A stretch of 32,973 bases of DNA from Halobacteriovorax sp. (GTDB lineage: Bacteria; Bdellovibrionota; Bacteriovoracia; Bacteriovoracales; Bacteriovoracaceae): contig PBIO01000023.1 in the NCBI GenBank assembly GCA_002720865.1, positions 1 through 32,973 on the forward strand, written 5' to 3'. Under the pieces are notes generated by a model. The model searched no databases. It saw only the letters and a program-made list of their open reading frames with translations, and had not been told where the DNA came from. Numbering within the stretch: the stretch's first letter is position 1; each line of letters opens with the position of its first letter. Below are positions 1 through 28,095 of the stretch, one piece after another. The translations under genes were made by a program, and so were the position numbers.

Positions 1-1
1 A

Positions 2-913
2 ATGGCTACACTTACACCGCAGTTCTTCCAGCTTTTGGAAGCCGAAGAGAAGGACGTGTTTTTCCAGTCCTTCCAAATGCAGAGTCTCAAATACCCACAA
101 CTGTTTGAAACTCGAAACAGCACCAAGGCATACGAAGACCGAATTCGTATCGCTGGTCTGGGCACGTTTGCTACCAAGCCCGAGGGCACGCCGGTAGCGT
201 TCGATGACCCGGTGCAGGGTACCCAAGTCAGGACGGTCCATCAGACCTTTGCGCTCGGTTGGCGAGCAACCATGGAGATGATGGAAGATGACCAGTTCAA
301 TGTAATGAACCGGATGTCCAGTGAGCTTGGTGAATCTGCTCGTGACCATCAGGAGCGCCTTGCATGGGGCCTCGTCAATGATGGCTTCACTGGCACTACC
401 TATACGGGATTGGATAACGATACTCTCTTTCAGGCATCTCACACGATCCTGAAGGGTGCATCGTCTACCACTTCCAACATCCTCAGCCCCGCAGTTGCGC
501 TGAGCCAGACTGGACTGGAGTCCATTCTTACGCTGGCTAGCACCACTACGTCGGATGAGGGACGGTTCGTTGATCTCGCTCCGTCTATCCTCTTGATTCA
601 TCCCAATGAGCAGCACAATGCATACGTGCTCCTCAACACGGATTACAAGCCGGGTAGCGCGGACAATGATCGAAGCACCGTGGTTTCGAGTCGCAGTGGT
701 CTGCGTCCGTTGGAGGTTCCGTACCTCTCCAGCCAGACCAACTGGTTCGTGTTCTCGCCTCCGGGCAAGAATACGTTGGCGTGGAACAACCGTAAGAGTC
801 TCACCTTCTCGCGCGCACAGGATGCTGATACGTTCGATCAGAAGTTCTACGGAGCTTATCGAGCCAGCGTCATGTTCGACGAGTGGCGAGGATCTTGGGG
901 ATCCCAGGCGTAG
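2..913 (+). CDS. Major capsid protein, Mu gpT/HK97-fold type
   Basis: This 303-residue protein most likely forms the icosahedral capsid shell. The assignment rests on overall resemblance to Mu gpT-like major head subunits: an N-terminal helical arm (residues 1-40), a middle segment with repeated acidic and Met-rich helices (RATMEMMEDD near 90), a long Ser/Thr-rich central region and a C-terminal stretch ending in FDEWRGSWG. There are no cysteines, unlike the exported proteins just downstream. The ATG lies at base 2, so the ribosome-binding site is outside the window and a slightly longer N-terminus cannot be excluded. Its position ahead of the other virion genes is usual for a capsid gene, with terminase and portal expected upstream. 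Base composition is visibly more GC-rich than in the following genes. The family call is by eye, without a search. Confidence 0.8.
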   Translation: MATLTPQFFQLLEAEEKDVFFQSFQMQSLKYPQLFETRNSTKAYEDRIRIAGLGTFATKPEGTPVAFDDPVQGTQVRTVHQTFALGWRATMEMMEDDQFNVMNRMSSELGESARDHQERLAWGLVNDGFTGTTYTGLDNDTLFQASHTILKGASSTTSNILSPAVALSQTGLESILTLASTTTSDEGRFVDLAPSILLIHPNEQHNAYVLLNTDYKPGSADNDRSTVVSSRSGLRPLEVPYLSSQTNWFVFSPPGKNTLAWNNRKSLTFSRAQDADTFDQKFYGAYRASVMFDEWRGSWGSQA

Positions 914-22773: not shown

Positions 22774-23162
22774 TAATTTTTGTCTTCTTTTGTTCTGTTG
22801 TCCTGACCACCGGCAACAGGGCTGGCAGCTTTCCTCTCCAGGTCAGATAGCCTGACGTATAGAATGAATGCCCAGCCTACAATATCTAGAGCTTCTTCTT
22901 GGATTTCTTGAATGAGCCCGATGGGACTCATGTCAAAGCTATCATCTCCGTATTCTTCGTGACCTTGGCGCAGTCTGTTTTGCAGCAGTGTTGCAAAGTG
23001 TGGCCATTCTTTTTCCCATCTTGCTTCATAATCTGGAAATAGTTTTAGTTGTTTTGGTTCTGGATTAAACTTCGGGGTACCCTTACGGGTCGTAACTTCT
23101 TCTGGGTTTTTGTAGTAATGGAAAGTGAAAAACTTCCTCATCATCTTGTGCAAGAGTTGCAT
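22773..23162 (-). CDS. MazG-like nucleotide pyrophosphohydrolase
   Basis: This 129-residue protein contains the all-helical MazG-type core in residues about 60-110: RLRQGHEEYGDDSF, then EIQEEALDIVGWA, which holds the E-x-x-E-E-x-x-D metal-binding pattern (E86, E89, E90, D93). MazG-like enzymes hydrolyse nucleoside triphosphates to monophosphates, and in phages they may adjust nucleotide pools or alarmone levels. The N-terminal 50 residues are basic and unrelated. It overlaps the upstream helicase-like gene by 22 bases and the next gene by a TAATG. A copy of the 16-base hairpin repeat seen near 28.1 kb lies within its coding sequence. Confidence 0.7.
   Translation of the reverse strand: MQLLHKMMRKFFTFHYYKNPEEVTTRKGTPKFNPEPKQLKLFPDYEARWEKEWPHFATLLQNRLRQGHEEYGDDSFDMSPIGLIQEIQEEALDIVGWAFILYVRLSDLERKAASPVAGGQDNRTKEDKN
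23078..23093 (-). repeat. Hairpin repeat copy 1, within MazG-like gene
   Basis: On the minus strand the sequence is ACGACCCGTAAGGGTA, where ACCC and GGGT pair around a GTAA loop, a GNRA-type tetraloop in RNA. Two further copies lie together at 28096-28127; copy 3 there matches all 16 bases. Here it encodes the residues T-R-K-G-T, so coding constraint may also explain it. Confidence 0.5.
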
Positions 23163-24760
23163 TCATGCCCCACAATACGGTAATAGCCTCGCTTCCCCAG
23201 GTCCACTTCTTCGACCATCTCTTGGTCTTTGAGAAGATTAATATGGTACTTGGTTCCGTTGGAGAGCTTTGGGTTGAAGTATTGATGTACCACTCCTCTG
23301 CCGACACATCCACCGTTCTTCTTCAAGTAGTCCACTATCTGGGTTGTCCAATACTTGTTCTTCTTGCCTGAAGCTCGATCCATAAAAACTCGCATGGATT
23401 CTTCTTCAGCTTTGTAGAGCAAGCGGGCCAACTCGACGTGACGTTTGCGGACTCGTAGAGGTGGGAAGTTTCCCTCAGAGATTGCGAGCAGTGTGCTGAT
23501 CTGTAGAGCCATCCACAGGACACGGTTTGAGGTGTTCTCCCTAGCCTCTGTGCCGAATTTAACGTAGGACTGGTACTCACGCTCTACCATTTCTCGGTGG
23601 AACAAGTCCATTTCGTTCTGAGCATCTGGGTCGAGAATGGCAGGGACTTTGAATCCCAGGTCTATGATGTTGTTGATTAGGAAGTCGGCTAGAAATTCTG
23701 CGGCCAGCGGATCGAGAGGCTGGCCATTCATTAGGTTATGCTGGCGGCGACGATCCCAGACGGGATCCCGGTAACACCATAGAATCCGGTCACCCAGCCC
23801 ACCACCTAGGATGTCCATTTCAATTGTGTTCTGCATCCAATCAGGAGCTACGTTAGCCAGGATGCTAAGAGCTAGGTTGTTGAGATCTTCAATGCCGTTT
23901 GCCTTGGTCATCTTCCGGTATCGTTTAGACTCCTTGGCCGAGGTCAGAAAGGGTATCTTCTGAGTGATGTTCCAAACGTCTTTACCGAGGAAGGTCGCCA
24001 TTTCGTCGAGGGGCAGAAACCCTACGGCGTCACGGGTCGGCTCTGAGATCGTCACCAGCCCCTCCTCGTCACGGTCAATGTCCACCTCGACACCTCCGGG
24101 CGGTCGGCCTAGGAAGCTGACGACTGACTCGATGGTGGCATCAGAGGGGATTACATTTAGAAGATTCTCTGAGTCCTGCCCATCTCTAGCTTCTAGTTTG
24201 CTGTTTACTCTTTCGATTAGATAAGATGCTGCGCTAAGGGCTTGGCCTTTTCCTGCGCTTCGGTCGGCTCCCAGTACTGTGTACATGTTCATGTAGACTT
24301 GGGTTCCGGCGGGTACCCAGATACGTCTGCCACATACGAAGCCCAGTAGGGTCATCGCTGACCAGAAGTGGAAAGCTAGCGGAGCATTTCCTCCTCTGGC
24401 CCAGTTCAGGTAGCGACCTAACCACTCGTCCTGACCGGAAGGGTAGATATCTTCACCATCTACGAGGGTATAATCTGCGGTCTTTTGAGGGTTAAACCTT
24501 AGTGCATCGAAGATGTCTTCTGGTTCTAGTTGGATGATTCGGGCAACTGAAAAGCGGGCAGCATCAGCATCTTTGGCCTGAGCTATTCGACTGAGCATTG
24601 GCGCGAGTAGGCTGGTGTATTTGTCCCGATCTTCTTGAGTTAGATCTTTCCAGAGTAGCTTAACGTGGCAGAGCAGTTGGTACTGTAGATAGAAATCTGA
24701 ATGGATATCTGCCTTTTTAAGCATCTCGTGGATATGGTTATGACGGTCGAGAGCTTCCAA
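23141..24760 (-). CDS. DUF3987-type helicase/primase-like ATPase
   Basis: This 539-residue protein has the layout of DUF3987 proteins, which replace or assist replicative helicases in many phages. An N-terminal helical region is followed by a P-loop-like motif at 164-172 (GADRSAGKG). The last residue is Gly where Ser or Thr normally follows Lys, so nucleotide binding may be altered. A Walker B-like segment (VGFLPLDEMATFLGK, with D252 and E253) comes next. The C-terminal 80 residues look like a winged-helix domain (YWTTQIVDYLKKNGG, then GTKYHINLLKDQEMVEE). Start is TTG 24760 with AGAGG eight bases upstream, directly after the polymerase stop. Context supports a replication role. Confidence 0.65.
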   Translation of the reverse strand: MEALDRHNHIHEMLKKADIHSDFYLQYQLLCHVKLLWKDLTQEDRDKYTSLLAPMLSRIAQAKDADAARFSVARIIQLEPEDIFDALRFNPQKTADYTLVDGEDIYPSGQDEWLGRYLNWARGGNAPLAFHFWSAMTLLGFVCGRRIWVPAGTQVYMNMYTVLGADRSAGKGQALSAASYLIERVNSKLEARDGQDSENLLNVIPSDATIESVVSFLGRPPGGVEVDIDRDEEGLVTISEPTRDAVGFLPLDEMATFLGKDVWNITQKIPFLTSAKESKRYRKMTKANGIEDLNNLALSILANVAPDWMQNTIEMDILGGGLGDRILWCYRDPVWDRRRQHNLMNGQPLDPLAAEFLADFLINNIIDLGFKVPAILDPDAQNEMDLFHREMVEREYQSYVKFGTEARENTSNRVLWMALQISTLLAISEGNFPPLRVRKRHVELARLLYKAEEESMRVFMDRASGKKNKYWTTQIVDYLKKNGGCVGRGVVHQYFNPKLSNGTKYHINLLKDQEMVEEVDLGKRGYYRIVGHECNSCTR

Positions 24761-26230
24761 TTACTTAACCTCTTTTAGTCCGTTGGGATTGTCTTGACTG
24801 TAAGCTCCCCAGTTGTGGCCAATCTCTGTGTCCACTGGGAATGATACGCCACCGAATGCTTCTACGGGTTCTTCCATTACGCCTTTCATGTCGGCAATGT
24901 GTTGGTCTACCAGACTGCCGGGAGTTTCTGGAACTTCCAGCAGAAAGGCGTCGTGGAATTGTAGAATGATAGGCAAGCCCATTGCGTGCATCTTAACCTG
25001 TGCTTGGTTCATTCTAATTGCCCCGTTCATTTGCATGGGAATATTTAGAACTTCGCGGCGTAGATCATTCCCCCAGGGTTTGGAAATCCAGCGGCGCAAG
25101 CCGAAGGGACTTTCGTAGTAGTGGTTACGTTGGACAAATTCACATAGGTTGTCTTGGAATTTTCTAACCCAGTGATGTGTCTTGAACCAGTTTTCTTCGG
25201 CGTTGAGGATTTCGTACTTTTTTAAGGTGAGACTTTGAGGTGTCCTGTCAGCGCATTTTTCACACGGGCAGTACGTTTTTGATTTTTCCACTGCACCTTC
25301 CCCTCCGTAGCTGATCCTGTATAGAAAACCTTTTGCGAAGTTACGGTAAGCTTTCGCTTTACCACCGAGTGCTTCCCATTGGGTCTTTGATAACCCAAAG
25401 AGATCTCTCGCGTTCTGTGTATGGACATCTTTACCGGAGTTAAACGCTTCGATGGAGATCTCATCTCCAGAGAGATACGCAAGGATCCGAGCTTCAAGTT
25501 GTGAATAGTCCGACGCGATGAGAATTTTTCCTCTTTCCGCTTGGAATAGGTGACGAACTTCGGGCGGGAATTGCTGGAGAGCTGGGTCGGCATAGGCGTA
25601 CCTGAATGTTTTAGTCCCGGTGATCTTTACCGTAGGTCGGCAACGCTTGTCTGGACCTAGCGGGATAGTCATGTACCGGGTTAGGATGGTTTGTAGACGG
25701 GCTCTGTGGAACAAGGAGTAGAGTAGCTGCCGGTGTGGCTCGTCTTTTTTACGAAACTTTTTTAGAACTCTAGTCAGGGCATCTTGATCTACACTGTATC
25801 TGCCTGTTTCGGTTTTCTTGTGAGATTTTAGTTTTAAGTGATCGAAGAGAAACTTACCCGTTTGCATGCCACTGTTGGGGAACTTGTCTGTGTAGTCTGT
25901 GAAGCCAGTCTGGTCAGCATAGTCGCGGATAAACTGGTCTGTCTCGTTGAGTTCCCGGCGTAGGTTCATGTGATAGGTGTGTTTCTTTTCTTTGTCTAGT
26001 AGGATGCCTCGTTTTTGCATGTCCATTACTGCTGCCTGTAGAGGCTGAACCCACTCTGTGTAGAAATTCCACTGAGTGGGGAAGTTTTGGCTCTGCATTT
26101 CAGCCCGCATAGCGAGGAACAGTTTTGCTGTATTGTGTGCGTCGTGTGCGTTGTATAGAAATATTGATTCGTTAGGTAGGCGTAGAAATTTATGACTGGT
26201 GTTTGCTGCCCAACTAGTGGGAGGCGACAT
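24761..26230 (-). CDS. Family A DNA polymerase, Exo III plus polymerase domain
   Basis: The 489-residue chain carries all three family A polymerase motifs: A, DYSQLEARILAYLSG, with D241; B, RNFAKGFLYRISYGG (296-310), with R296, K300 and Tyr304 at the position of T7 Tyr526 and E. coli Phe762; C, QFHDAF, with H426 and D427. Near the N-terminus, YNAHD (26-30) is the Exo III motif of the 3'-5' exonuclease. Exo I and Exo II lie in the separate upstream protein. An unusual CPCEKC cluster (321-326) follows motif B. The ATG is in frame with the upstream exonuclease gene and is separated from it by TAA plus two sense codons. The polymerase domain appears intact. Confidence 0.9.
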   Translation of the reverse strand: MSPPTSWAANTSHKFLRLPNESIFLYNAHDAHNTAKLFLAMRAEMQSQNFPTQWNFYTEWVQPLQAAVMDMQKRGILLDKEKKHTYHMNLRRELNETDQFIRDYADQTGFTDYTDKFPNSGMQTGKFLFDHLKLKSHKKTETGRYSVDQDALTRVLKKFRKKDEPHRQLLYSLFHRARLQTILTRYMTIPLGPDKRCRPTVKITGTKTFRYAYADPALQQFPPEVRHLFQAERGKILIASDYSQLEARILAYLSGDEISIEAFNSGKDVHTQNARDLFGLSKTQWEALGGKAKAYRNFAKGFLYRISYGGEGAVEKSKTYCPCEKCADRTPQSLTLKKYEILNAEENWFKTHHWVRKFQDNLCEFVQRNHYYESPFGLRRWISKPWGNDLRREVLNIPMQMNGAIRMNQAQVKMHAMGLPIILQFHDAFLLEVPETPGSLVDQHIADMKGVMEEPVEAFGGVSFPVDTEIGHNWGAYSQDNPNGLKEVK

Positions 26231-26236
26231 AGACGG

Positions 26237-26239
26237 TTA
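26237..26239 (-). other. In-frame TAA between exonuclease and polymerase
   Basis: The exonuclease gene ends at this TAA. The same frame continues as CCG, TCT, then ATG, the polymerase start. If the stop were read through, the product would be one 705-residue exonuclease-polymerase chain with Exo I, II and III in order. TAA ends many other genes here, so general reassignment of TAA is unlikely. AAGG and GGGA before the ATG may allow reinitiation. A sequencing error or a recent nonsense change are also possible. Confidence 0.8.
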
Positions 26240-26878
26240 TCCCTTTCCTTCTGTTTCATCCTTGTCATCGAGTAGGTCTTTCCAGTGTGCCGCTCCTGTG
26301 TATAGAGTGGCGCAGTACTGTAGACCTTTACGCATTTCCGGGTACATGTAATGCTGCATAACCATTGTGTCCCAGATTTCCCCGCCGACTATGAAGCCGT
26401 GTTCTTCTAGAATGGGTACGTCGTGGGTAACTCCGTTGTGGAATATCTTGCCCAACTTGGGATTGATTAACCAACGGTACAGGTACTCGGTTGCCTTTAG
26501 GTGAGATTCCCAATCGGCCCAATAGTTGTGACCGTATCTCATCCTGTAAGGCAAGCTTAGTGTGGGGCCTAGTTCATTCCTTTCGGCAGAGAGGGCTGTT
26601 ATACCAATTAGTGTTAAGTAAGGTCCTGCGTTTTCAATGTCTATAGATAGTAGGTCGAAGTTTTCTAGTTGGTTTGTGAATTTTTCTAGGTCGTTTAAGG
26701 TGGGCCAGAGTTTGGTATTTTCAGGTAGGTTATTTGGATCGGTGGGATAGTTTGAAGGGTTTGTTGGATTGTTTAGGATTTTTTTGATTTGTTTAAGGTA
26801 GACTATTTGGGCAGAGTCCTCGTGCCAACGTCCGCGCACAATGCTCGCCGGATGTATAATAGGAAGTATCCAAGGCAT
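26237..26878 (-). CDS. UDG C-terminal motif plus Exo I/II domain
   Basis: This 213-residue protein begins MPWILPIIHPASIVRGRW. The HPAS (residues 9-12) matches the second active-site motif of family 4 uracil-DNA glycosylases, which normally lies near the end of that domain. After a Pro/Asn-rich linker (about 35-55) it carries Exo I (D80-x-E82 in LLSIDIENAG) and Exo II (IFHNGVTHDVPIL, with N148 and D153) of a DnaQ/Pol I-type 3'-5' exonuclease. Exo III is missing and lies at the start of the next protein. AAGGTGG precedes ATG, so this is a real translation start. The product fits the middle part of an SPO1-type UDG-exonuclease-polymerase that has been split. Confidence 0.85.
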   Translation of the reverse strand: MPWILPIIHPASIVRGRWHEDSAQIVYLKQIKKILNNPTNPSNYPTDPNNLPENTKLWPTLNDLEKFTNQLENFDLLSIDIENAGPYLTLIGITALSAERNELGPTLSLPYRMRYGHNYWADWESHLKATEYLYRWLINPKLGKIFHNGVTHDVPILEEHGFIVGGEIWDTMVMQHYMYPEMRKGLQYCATLYTGAAHWKDLLDDKDETEGKG

Positions 26879-26893
26879 TTTCCACCTTTATAT

Positions 26894-27097
26894 TTAGGGG
26901 GTGGATGAATTGTGTGAATCTAGGTGCTTTGAAATCCTCGTGGAATCGAAGTAGGTTTTCAGGATTGCCAGTTCATGGATTACCTTGGTTAGAACTTCAT
27001 TGGTATCTTCCACATCTCTAGTTAGAATGGCAAGTTTTTTCTCTAGTTCTGCCACCCTGTCAGTCTGGTTATTGGGTACATCGTAACTTTCTGTCAT
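26894..27097 (-). CDS. Small coiled-coil protein inserted in polymerase region
   Basis: The 67-residue product is largely one helix with heptad-like spacing (VAELEKKLAILTRDVEDTN, then VLTKVIHELAILKTYF), so a coiled coil or dimer is likely. The start overlaps the UDG-like stop as ATGA, and the end lies 15 bases before the next gene. It sits exactly where the UDG-like domain is broken. It might join the separated polypeptides, or be an unrelated inserted gene. No family recognised. Confidence 0.6.
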   Translation of the reverse strand: MTESYDVPNNQTDRVAELEKKLAILTRDVEDTNEVLTKVIHELAILKTYFDSTRISKHLDSHNSSTP

Positions 27098-27573
27098 AGC
27101 TTTACCTTTTTAAGAGAACCCATGTGTTTGTCTAGTGGCCCCTCCAACTTGGTAAGGGCTCGCGTTGCCGGTGCGCCTACAGCTACGATGAGTGAATCAT
27201 CGGCTGTGTAACCTTCGTCTTCCAGTAGCGGGAGAAGGTGGTGCTCGTAACAATAGGTAGTCTCTTCTGGTTTAGGATCGCGGTTCCCCTGGGGGACGCC
27301 GTTGGGCTTCCGAGCAGGGAGCCAGCACCAGACGATGTTTGAGATGAGGGCCTCGGAGCGCCGAAGTCCTGCGCCTTGAAGCCATCGGTCGAGGGTCCTC
27401 CCGCTGGGGGCATTGGGAAAGAAGGGGCGGTCGAAACGCGCTTCCATCTCGCCAGGACCTTGACCGATCAGGGCAAACTTGGTGTCTTGACTGACATTTT
27501 CTGGCTTGACGAAGCCAATTCCCCACTCGTAAGCAGGACAGTTGGTGCAGCTTTTAGGCTTTTGAGTTGTCAT
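27094..27573 (-). CDS. Family 4 uracil-DNA glycosylase-like N-terminal part
   Basis: This 159-residue product contains CTNC (9-12), IGQGPGEMEARFDRPFFPN (motif 1 region; family 4 usually has GEAPG or GEGPG), NIVWCW and TTYCYEH. The four cysteines match the iron-sulfur ligands of family 4 UDG. It stops after a VAVGAPATRAL helix and MGSLKKVKL, so the second active-site motif (HPx) is absent; that motif opens the protein encoded at 26878. ATG 27573 is chosen because GGAGGA lies eight bases upstream; longer readings have no such site. It overlaps the GroES-like gene by 20 bases. Either a truncated UDG or the front third of a split SPO1-type polymerase. Confidence 0.8.
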   Translation of the reverse strand: MTTQKPKSCTNCPAYEWGIGFVKPENVSQDTKFALIGQGPGEMEARFDRPFFPNAPSGRTLDRWLQGAGLRRSEALISNIVWCWLPARKPNGVPQGNRDPKPEETTYCYEHHLLPLLEDEGYTADDSLIVAVGAPATRALTKLEGPLDKHMGSLKKVKL

Positions 27574-28084
27574 CCAAATTCTCCTCCGGGTTTGGACTTC
27601 CCCAGAAGAAAGTTTCATAATTGTCAATCGCCCAGATATCCCTGTCTGTTAGAACAATGATACCACTGTGGTATTCCCTGTCCATTACATCCAATCTTAG
27701 GACATTTCCAGAGTGCATGCCAAATACGATGTGTTTGTAGAGAAATTCTGAGGAATCTCCCAGAGGAGAGCCTGGAAAGGGTACGCCTGAGCCTACTAGA
27801 GAGCCTACAGACATGATGATTCCAGCACCCATCTTCTCGCGGGATTGGTATTCTTCAGGTAGCTGAATCCGCCCGTAGGTTTCAGGGACAGGGTCCAGTA
27901 CTACCAACATCCTGTGCCCTACTGGGTGGATGTCAAATGCTTTGGGGTTTACAGGCTTGACGCTTTCTATGGTGATCTCTTTTTCGGGATCGTTAGCCTG
28001 AGCTACTTTCCACATGGTTTGGTGGAGTTTTCCGGGGTTTGCAATGTGTGACGGTTGGATTTTATTCTCTATTTTAAGTGACAC
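27554..28084 (-). CDS. GroES-like co-chaperonin
   Basis: The 176-residue product has the GroES/Cpn10 pattern in its C-terminal two thirds: IHPVGHRMLVVLDPVPE, a mobile-loop region (TYGRIQLPEEYQSREKM), GAGIIMSVGSLVGSG, then HIVFGMHSGNVLRLD and IIVLTDRDIWAI, which align with the GroES elements P-L-x-D-R-V, G-I-x-L-P, G-x-V-x-x-V-G, VLF-x-x-x-x-G and ESDILA-x. GroES is about 97 residues; the extra N-terminal 50 residues are unique. Phage co-chaperonins such as T4 gp31 replace host GroES to fold capsid protein. GTG 28084 is preferred, with AGAGG seven bases upstream; TTG 28087 is an alternative. The start lies just after two hairpin repeats. Confidence 0.8.
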   Translation of the reverse strand: MSLKIENKIQPSHIANPGKLHQTMWKVAQANDPEKEITIESVKPVNPKAFDIHPVGHRMLVVLDPVPETYGRIQLPEEYQSREKMGAGIIMSVGSLVGSGVPFPGSPLGDSSEFLYKHIVFGMHSGNVLRLDVMDREYHSGIIVLTDRDIWAIDNYETFFWGSPNPEENLDDNSKA

Positions 28085-28095
28085 CAATTAACCTC

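Follow-up and report, generated by a model that had tools for sequence, protein, structure and literature searches.

A phage family A DNA polymerase encoded in pieces, with a gene break between exonuclease motifs Exo II and Exo III

The window analysed here, a stretch of 32,973 nucleotides (contig PBIO01000023.1 of the Halobacteriovorax sp. assembly GCA_002720865.1), raises the question of whether a family A DNA polymerase can be encoded in pieces whose breaks pass through its domains, or whether such pieces are what is left of a broken gene. Four consecutive minus-strand open reading frames (ORFs) at positions 27573-24761 (Table 1) hold, in this order, the first part of a uracil-DNA glycosylase (UDG) domain, termed UDG-N; a 67-aa coiled-coil-like segment; the second part of the UDG domain with the exonuclease motifs Exo I and Exo II (exo ORF, chain 2); and Exo III with the polymerase motifs A, B and C (pol ORF, chain 3). 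Order and motifs were found as the original prediction, made from the letters and a list of ORFs, had given them, and both breaks do lie inside domains, UDG and exonuclease, that are single-chain in relatives. It is considered likely that these genes represent a family A polymerase in pieces, with the exonuclease site at the interface of chains 2 and 3, the UDG being also cut in the window alone.

The domain content was established by profile searches. UDG-N matched PF03167 (Pfam, E 1.2e-11), TIGR00758 (NCBIfam, E 5.6e-15, profile positions 1-125 of 173) and the structures of family 4 UDG (E 5e-12), while the exo ORF matched DNA_pol_A_exo1 (PF01612, E 1.2e-5) and the pol ORF matched DNA_pol_A (PF00476, E 3.9e-42). 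On the profile of PHROG 17 (phage DNA polymerase), the exo ORF covered positions 606-798 (E 3e-14) and the pol ORF positions 800-1232 (E 3.9e-63), the two chains being collinear and nearly gapless between 798 and 800. The family A polymerase motifs A (Asp), B (Lys...Tyr) and C (His-Asp) were all present in the pol ORF, and the DEDDy 3′-5′ exonuclease set (Exo I DxE, Exo II N..D, Exo III YxxxD) was complete, with Exo III on the separate chain. The segment containing HPAS makes up the latter half of the UDG, as had been proposed, since it aligned with the (V/L)(L/I)PT(Y/F)HP(A/S) strand of homologues, of which 12 are single-chain and about 80 two-chain. The motifs that mark family 4 UDG within a single chain, GE[AG]PG and HP[SA], were found here as GQGPG and HPAS on two chains, and the four iron-sulphur (Fe-S) cysteines of this family were present in UDG-N. 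The score of UDG-N alone (55.5 bits) was under the TIGR00758 cut-off of 125.3, as were those of uncut homologues (L034, 91.8; L104, 86.8; Kuura 029, 70.9). For the 67-aa ORF, a weak SlyX match was obtained (E 0.0039, below the cut-off).

Whether related phages have these breaks, a point raised by the original prediction, received one answer for the exonuclease break and another for the UDG break, the latter being confined to the window. An alignment-based scan of viral contigs (IMG/VR) returned 498 related stretches, and the best 80, nearest to the window, were examined. UDG plus Exo I/II and Exo III plus polymerase were in separate genes in all 75 assessable loci, the window included, and in a single chain in 0 of the 75, a result that is not the frequency of the split among all PolA, as the scan pattern was built mostly from split sequences; five further loci end too early to be assessed. 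The same split was observed in the cultured Caulobacter phage Kuura, in which gene 029 carries UDG and Exo I/II and gene 026, beyond two small genes, carries Exo III and the polymerase. The position of the cut varies little: gene 1 ends a median of 13 aa (range 3-17) past an invariant WK, which is also the value in the window, and gene 2 starts a median of 24 aa (about 20-28) ahead of the Exo III Tyr, the value in the window being 25. In the window, L104 and L029, the cut falls at a common position of PHROG 17 (about 798-802), and in Kuura it falls close by. The window thus has the Kuura-type cut between Exo II and Exo III, but not the other features of that type, in which UDG and Exo I/II lie in one chain and the Fe-S cysteines are missing; in the window, the UDG is cut and these cysteines are present. 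Genome scans revealed the identical split in only two contigs of metagenome-assembled genomes (Terriglobia and Actinomycetes), so that the hosts of the family are mostly unassigned. A whole-genome search for polymerase relatives returned mostly PolA-sized open frames of ~900 aa. In another contig, IMGVR_UViG_3300044683_000155, polymerase genes were seen at both ends (L081 and L085), which suggests a circular or permuted genome.

Catalytic residues are conserved on both sides of the break. The Asp and Glu of Exo I and the Asn of Exo II were invariant (81/81), as were, on the polymerase chain, the Tyr and Asp of Exo III (71/71), the Asp of motif A (71/71), the Lys of motif B (71/71) and the HD of motif C (70/70 with letters there). 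Mainly because the exonuclease residues are invariant on both chains, neither of which alone holds the complete site, we infer that the chains co-assemble, and the proofreading site is probably rebuilt from two proteins. The original prediction had claimed such a rebuilding of the exonuclease; the break inside the domain is observed, and the residues conserved on both chains argue for the rest. As a separate observation, the equivalent of Klenow Phe762, located by motif spacing, was His in 70/71 polymerases of the split family, the window having Tyr (KGFLYRISYGG); in the part of the literature available, Phe, Tyr and Leu are discussed for this position.

The proposed sequence of events would start from a UDG-exonuclease-polymerase fusion, cut within the disordered loop that leads from Exo II to Exo III, presumably through gene insertion at this junction. 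Chain 2, carrying the second half of UDG with both Exo I and Exo II, would be made separately from chain 3, which carries the Exo III helix with thumb, palm and fingers; the two would then associate, and the 3′-5′ exonuclease site would lie at their interface, with the Exo I/II residues coming from chain 2 and the Exo III Tyr/Asp from chain 3. In this phage only, the UDG would have been additionally cut in a β-turn by the 67-aa gene, and the two UDG pieces may associate too. When placed on a vir526-like single-chain model, the exonuclease cut falls in a low-confidence loop (349-361) directly ahead of the Exo III helix, and the UDG cut falls in the turn that connects strands 142-145 and 151-157. 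In its UDG part, this model resembles the Thermus thermophilus UDG (1ui0; TM 0.80 by target); the polymerase part was of low confidence and was not used.

Several points weigh against the reading of a polymerase in pieces with a shared exonuclease site. The polymerase tree rejects a clade uniting the window and Kuura (approximately unbiased (AU) test, p 0.00016 with 26 rows and 0.031 with 66 rows). The UDG of the window departs from conserved residues, with GE changed to GQ in motif 1, the Arg of the RG motif changed to Met, and PT(Y/F)HP changed to PIIHP. Its Exo I reads DIEN, where 80/81 have DIET or a similar motif with Thr, and one extra residue is present in its Exo II; judged by these motifs, exonuclease activity in the window is plausible but not certain. 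In favor of the reading, a model of the joined exo and pol chains of the window matched the whole Klenow fragment (1kfs, Z 30.1, 544 residues), with the cut region 181-234 disordered, but this agreement indicates compatibility and not association, as the linker, a read-through in which TAA was read as Gln, is artificial and absent in nature. Such read-through rows were also used in the alignments for folding.

The UDG break is the less secure of the two. Compared with vir526, the UDG is cut between KHMGSLKKVKL and PWILPIIHPAS, with the strand that follows the RG motif on one side and the HP strand on the other, and this cut was not found in any other fetched locus. Single-protein scans with the polymerase, exo, UDG-N and DUF3987 proteins returned no close relatives beyond the contig itself, the one extra match (L028) being 34 residues in a different exo-pol protein, which leaves the UDG cut without a close counterpart for comparison. 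It was weighed whether the UDG of the window is a decaying remnant, destroyed by the 67-aa gene, with exo and pol alone mattering, and this explanation has a little less than an even chance. It is favored by the occurrence of the cut in the window only, by the failure to find close relatives sharing it, and by the exchanges E to Q, R to M and T to I at otherwise conserved positions. However, the four Fe-S cysteines, GxGPG and HPAS are all retained, both pieces are open and have plausible ribosome sites, and the cut falls cleanly in a turn. Activity of this UDG is doubtful because of the substitutions at GQGPG, RG and PIIHP, and the sequence suggests a structural, DNA-binding or degenerate domain rather than a working glycosylase. 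As to the claim that the UDG would be rebuilt from two chains, the break inside the domain stands, whereas the rebuilding is unproven, given a cut seen only here and the changed residues. A four-chain holoenzyme, in which the exonuclease and uracil-recognition sites would both be rebuilt across chains and the 67-aa protein would bridge the UDG halves, is improbable. In the UDG halves of the split family (~80 loci), GEAWG mostly replaces GEAPG as motif 1, and HP(A/S) is retained, while the Fe-S cysteines that the window keeps have been lost; this is an altered UDG, which may or may not be active. A host ORF, G000:C17:5808-6059 (L003 1204-3147), encodes 648 aa with a lipoprotein-like start and gave two weak UDG-like half matches.

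The break between exo and pol, in turn, may have arisen twice, in the window lineage and in the Kuura clade, or a single time, the polymerase part having later diverged or been exchanged. The trees, one of which included 56 non-redundant family members, point in different directions, and long branches weaken all of them. Two origins agree with the rejection, in the polymerase tree, of the split rows as one clade (the window chain lying outside the Kuura group, with long branches), and with the Fe-S cysteines being kept in the window and lost in the family. On the other hand, the exo tree leans to a single group with the window, without rejection (AU p 0.12), the cut falls at identical residues in window and family, and a model built on the C-terminal 60 aa of the family gene 1 gave the window 48.9 bits, against at most 33.4 for the single chains. 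Two origins are slightly the less expected outcome, and both histories are possible.

It is unlikely that the exo fragment and the polymerase work apart, the polymerase being free of proofreading and the UDG-exo protein serving in another role. More than 1 kb can intervene between the halves in relatives, and tight coupling is not always retained, as such separate action would allow. However, the Tyr and Asp of Exo III are invariant on the polymerase chain, where they would be useless by themselves, the other chain has invariant Exo I/II, and the full set of exonuclease carboxylates is on neither fragment.

The junction between the two genes also bears on whether the pieces are ever one chain. 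In the 81 split loci, the genes were overlapping in 12, within 30 nt in 13, within 100 nt in 1, and more than 100 nt apart in 55, and the intervening genes were unrelated small genes (HNH_3 endonucleases, endonuclease VII, NrdR-like zinc ribbon, DUF7768, DUF1937/DUF4406 and DUF3102). The junction is a gene-insertion hot spot or a short overlap. Endonuclease insertions that split essential phage genes with function kept have been documented (PMC2988022), and a junction with repeated endonuclease and small-gene insertion provides a natural series for how genes become split. It is very improbable that read-through of the stop, a frameshift or an intron unites the pieces: one frame continues across TAA in 7/25 closely spaced loci, but such pairs may end in any of the three stop codons and take any of the three relative frames, most split loci are widely spaced, many with unrelated small genes, and in the window exo and pol are separated only by TAA and two codons. 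Recoding was rejected on the variation in stop codons and frames, and a joining intron was rejected as well, as neither the window stretch (E up to 0.5) nor eight related loci matched any Rfam family, group I introns included. An error of sequencing or assembly hiding a single chain is just as remote, for although the sequence comes from one assembly only and the 67-aa, exo and pol ORFs share one reading frame interrupted by TAA stops alone, so that one wrong base could create the exo/pol stop, this stop and restart coincide with the positions in other split members, and the UDG cut takes an insert of ~200 nt, a frame change (UDG-N being in a different frame) and new start signals, which no base-call error can produce.

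Table 1. Coordinates of the polymerase genes, candidate ribosome sites and the next gene downstream
Feature	Position	Strand	Basis or remarks
UDG-N (159 aa)	27094..27573	-	ATG start; C9, C12, C83, C108; GQGPGEMEA; ends after strand KHMGSLKKVKL
67-aa coiled-coil-like ORF between UDG halves	26894..27097	-	sequence; weak SlyX match
UDG-C strand ILPIIHPAS, Exo I DIEN and Exo II NGVTHD (213 aa)	26237..26878	-	
Exo III YNAHD and family A polymerase motifs A DYSQLEAR, B KGFLYRISYGG and C HDAF (489 aa)	24761..26230	-	
Shine-Dalgarno-like GGAGGAG ahead of UDG-N start	27581..27587	-	sequence
AAAGGT ahead of 67-aa ORF	27109-27104	-	sequence
Shine-Dalgarno-like AAGGTGG right ahead of HPAS/exo ATG	26882..26888	-	sequence
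Purine-rich AAGGAAAGGG ahead of pol start; possible ribosome site, long spacing	26241..26250	-	sequence
DUF3987-type replication helicase/primase-like gene, next downstream of pol	23141..24760	-	profile matches

The TGA of UDG-N and the ATG of the 67-aa ORF overlap as ATGA, and two in-frame TAA stops lie upstream of the HPAS/exo start. DUF3987/primase genes are also found downstream of the polymerase in vir526, Mel-JY34 and a Desulfofustis phage. The gene adjoining UDG-N upstream (27554-28087, minus strand) gave a weak Cpn10-like match (E 0.021, below the cut-off). The whole contig corresponds to IMGVR_UViG_2788500220_000007 and starts at the start of a major capsid gene (window 1-913); neither a terminase nor a portal turned up in the contig ORFs scanned, and thus the contig may be incomplete.

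The original prediction had held that no family with this arrangement was known to have been described. No description was found, in the open-access literature, of a polymerase family that is divided between Exo II and Exo III and carries the UDG on its first chain, and a search there for polymerases split in the exonuclease domain returned other kinds of split only, an absence that is not proof; nonetheless, a family with the exonuclease break exists, as the viral loci and Kuura show. The split phage polymerases found described are cut elsewhere, whereas the present cut passes through the active site for proofreading and is a constant feature of a diverse family of phages. Should the two chains associate, the level of proofreading could depend on the amount of the UDG-exo subunit, and each chain could evolve, or be exchanged, independently of the other.

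Among known systems, the term SPO1-type, used in the original prediction, is a loose label: the nearest intact relatives among the proteins compared are the UDG-exo-PolA fusions of Caudoviricetes sp. vir526 (BK063670), Microcystis phage Mel-JY34 and others (PHROG 17), a large Staphylococcus phage (L057) matching the pol model only. These fusions have the domains of the window in the same order, but in one chain of about 780-870 aa (~860 aa in vir526), and vir526 retains the Fe-S cysteines, as the window does. Family 4 UDG (TIGR00758; 1ui0, 1vk2) shares the motif 1 region and the Fe-S cysteines, but it is a single chain, while the window has HPAS on the next chain and substitutions at conserved positions. 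In the OM43 phages MEP401/402, PolA is also divided over two genes that flank a small ORF, but the split lies within the polymerase domain and the whole exonuclease is on the first chain (PMC10580990); the window cut, between Exo II and Exo III, is not of this type. A MEP401-like cut within the polymerase domain of a UDG-exo-pol, with a ~184-aa gene between, was seen in Vibrio phage VS-ABTNL-3 (L051, 3297-6431), and a third breakpoint in MW202554 (L049, 1727-4364), where UDG and the whole exonuclease, Exo III included, precede a polymerase in the next gene, the gap holding an unannotated, NrdR zinc ribbon-like open frame. The T4-like 43A/43B pieces co-purify and show polymerase activity, and NrdA of phage Aeh1, likewise split, retains full function (reviewed in PMC2988022). 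Both resemble the window in being essential phage enzymes in pieces, some with homing endonucleases, but they are a family B polymerase and a ribonucleotide reductase, not a UDG-exo-PolA. A close counterpart is Kuura 029/026 (OQ067476), with chains of 369 and 560 aa, from a cultured and sequenced Caulobacter phage (PMC9959647). Its paper and record describe no split polymerase and list 029 as a 'hypothetical protein' (PMC9959647), an example of how routine annotation overlooks the split. Like the window, Kuura has UDG plus Exo I/II and Exo III plus polymerase in two genes divided at the common position and retains the catalytic residues of exonuclease and polymerase; unlike the window, it has an uncut UDG without Fe-S cysteines and two small genes between the halves.

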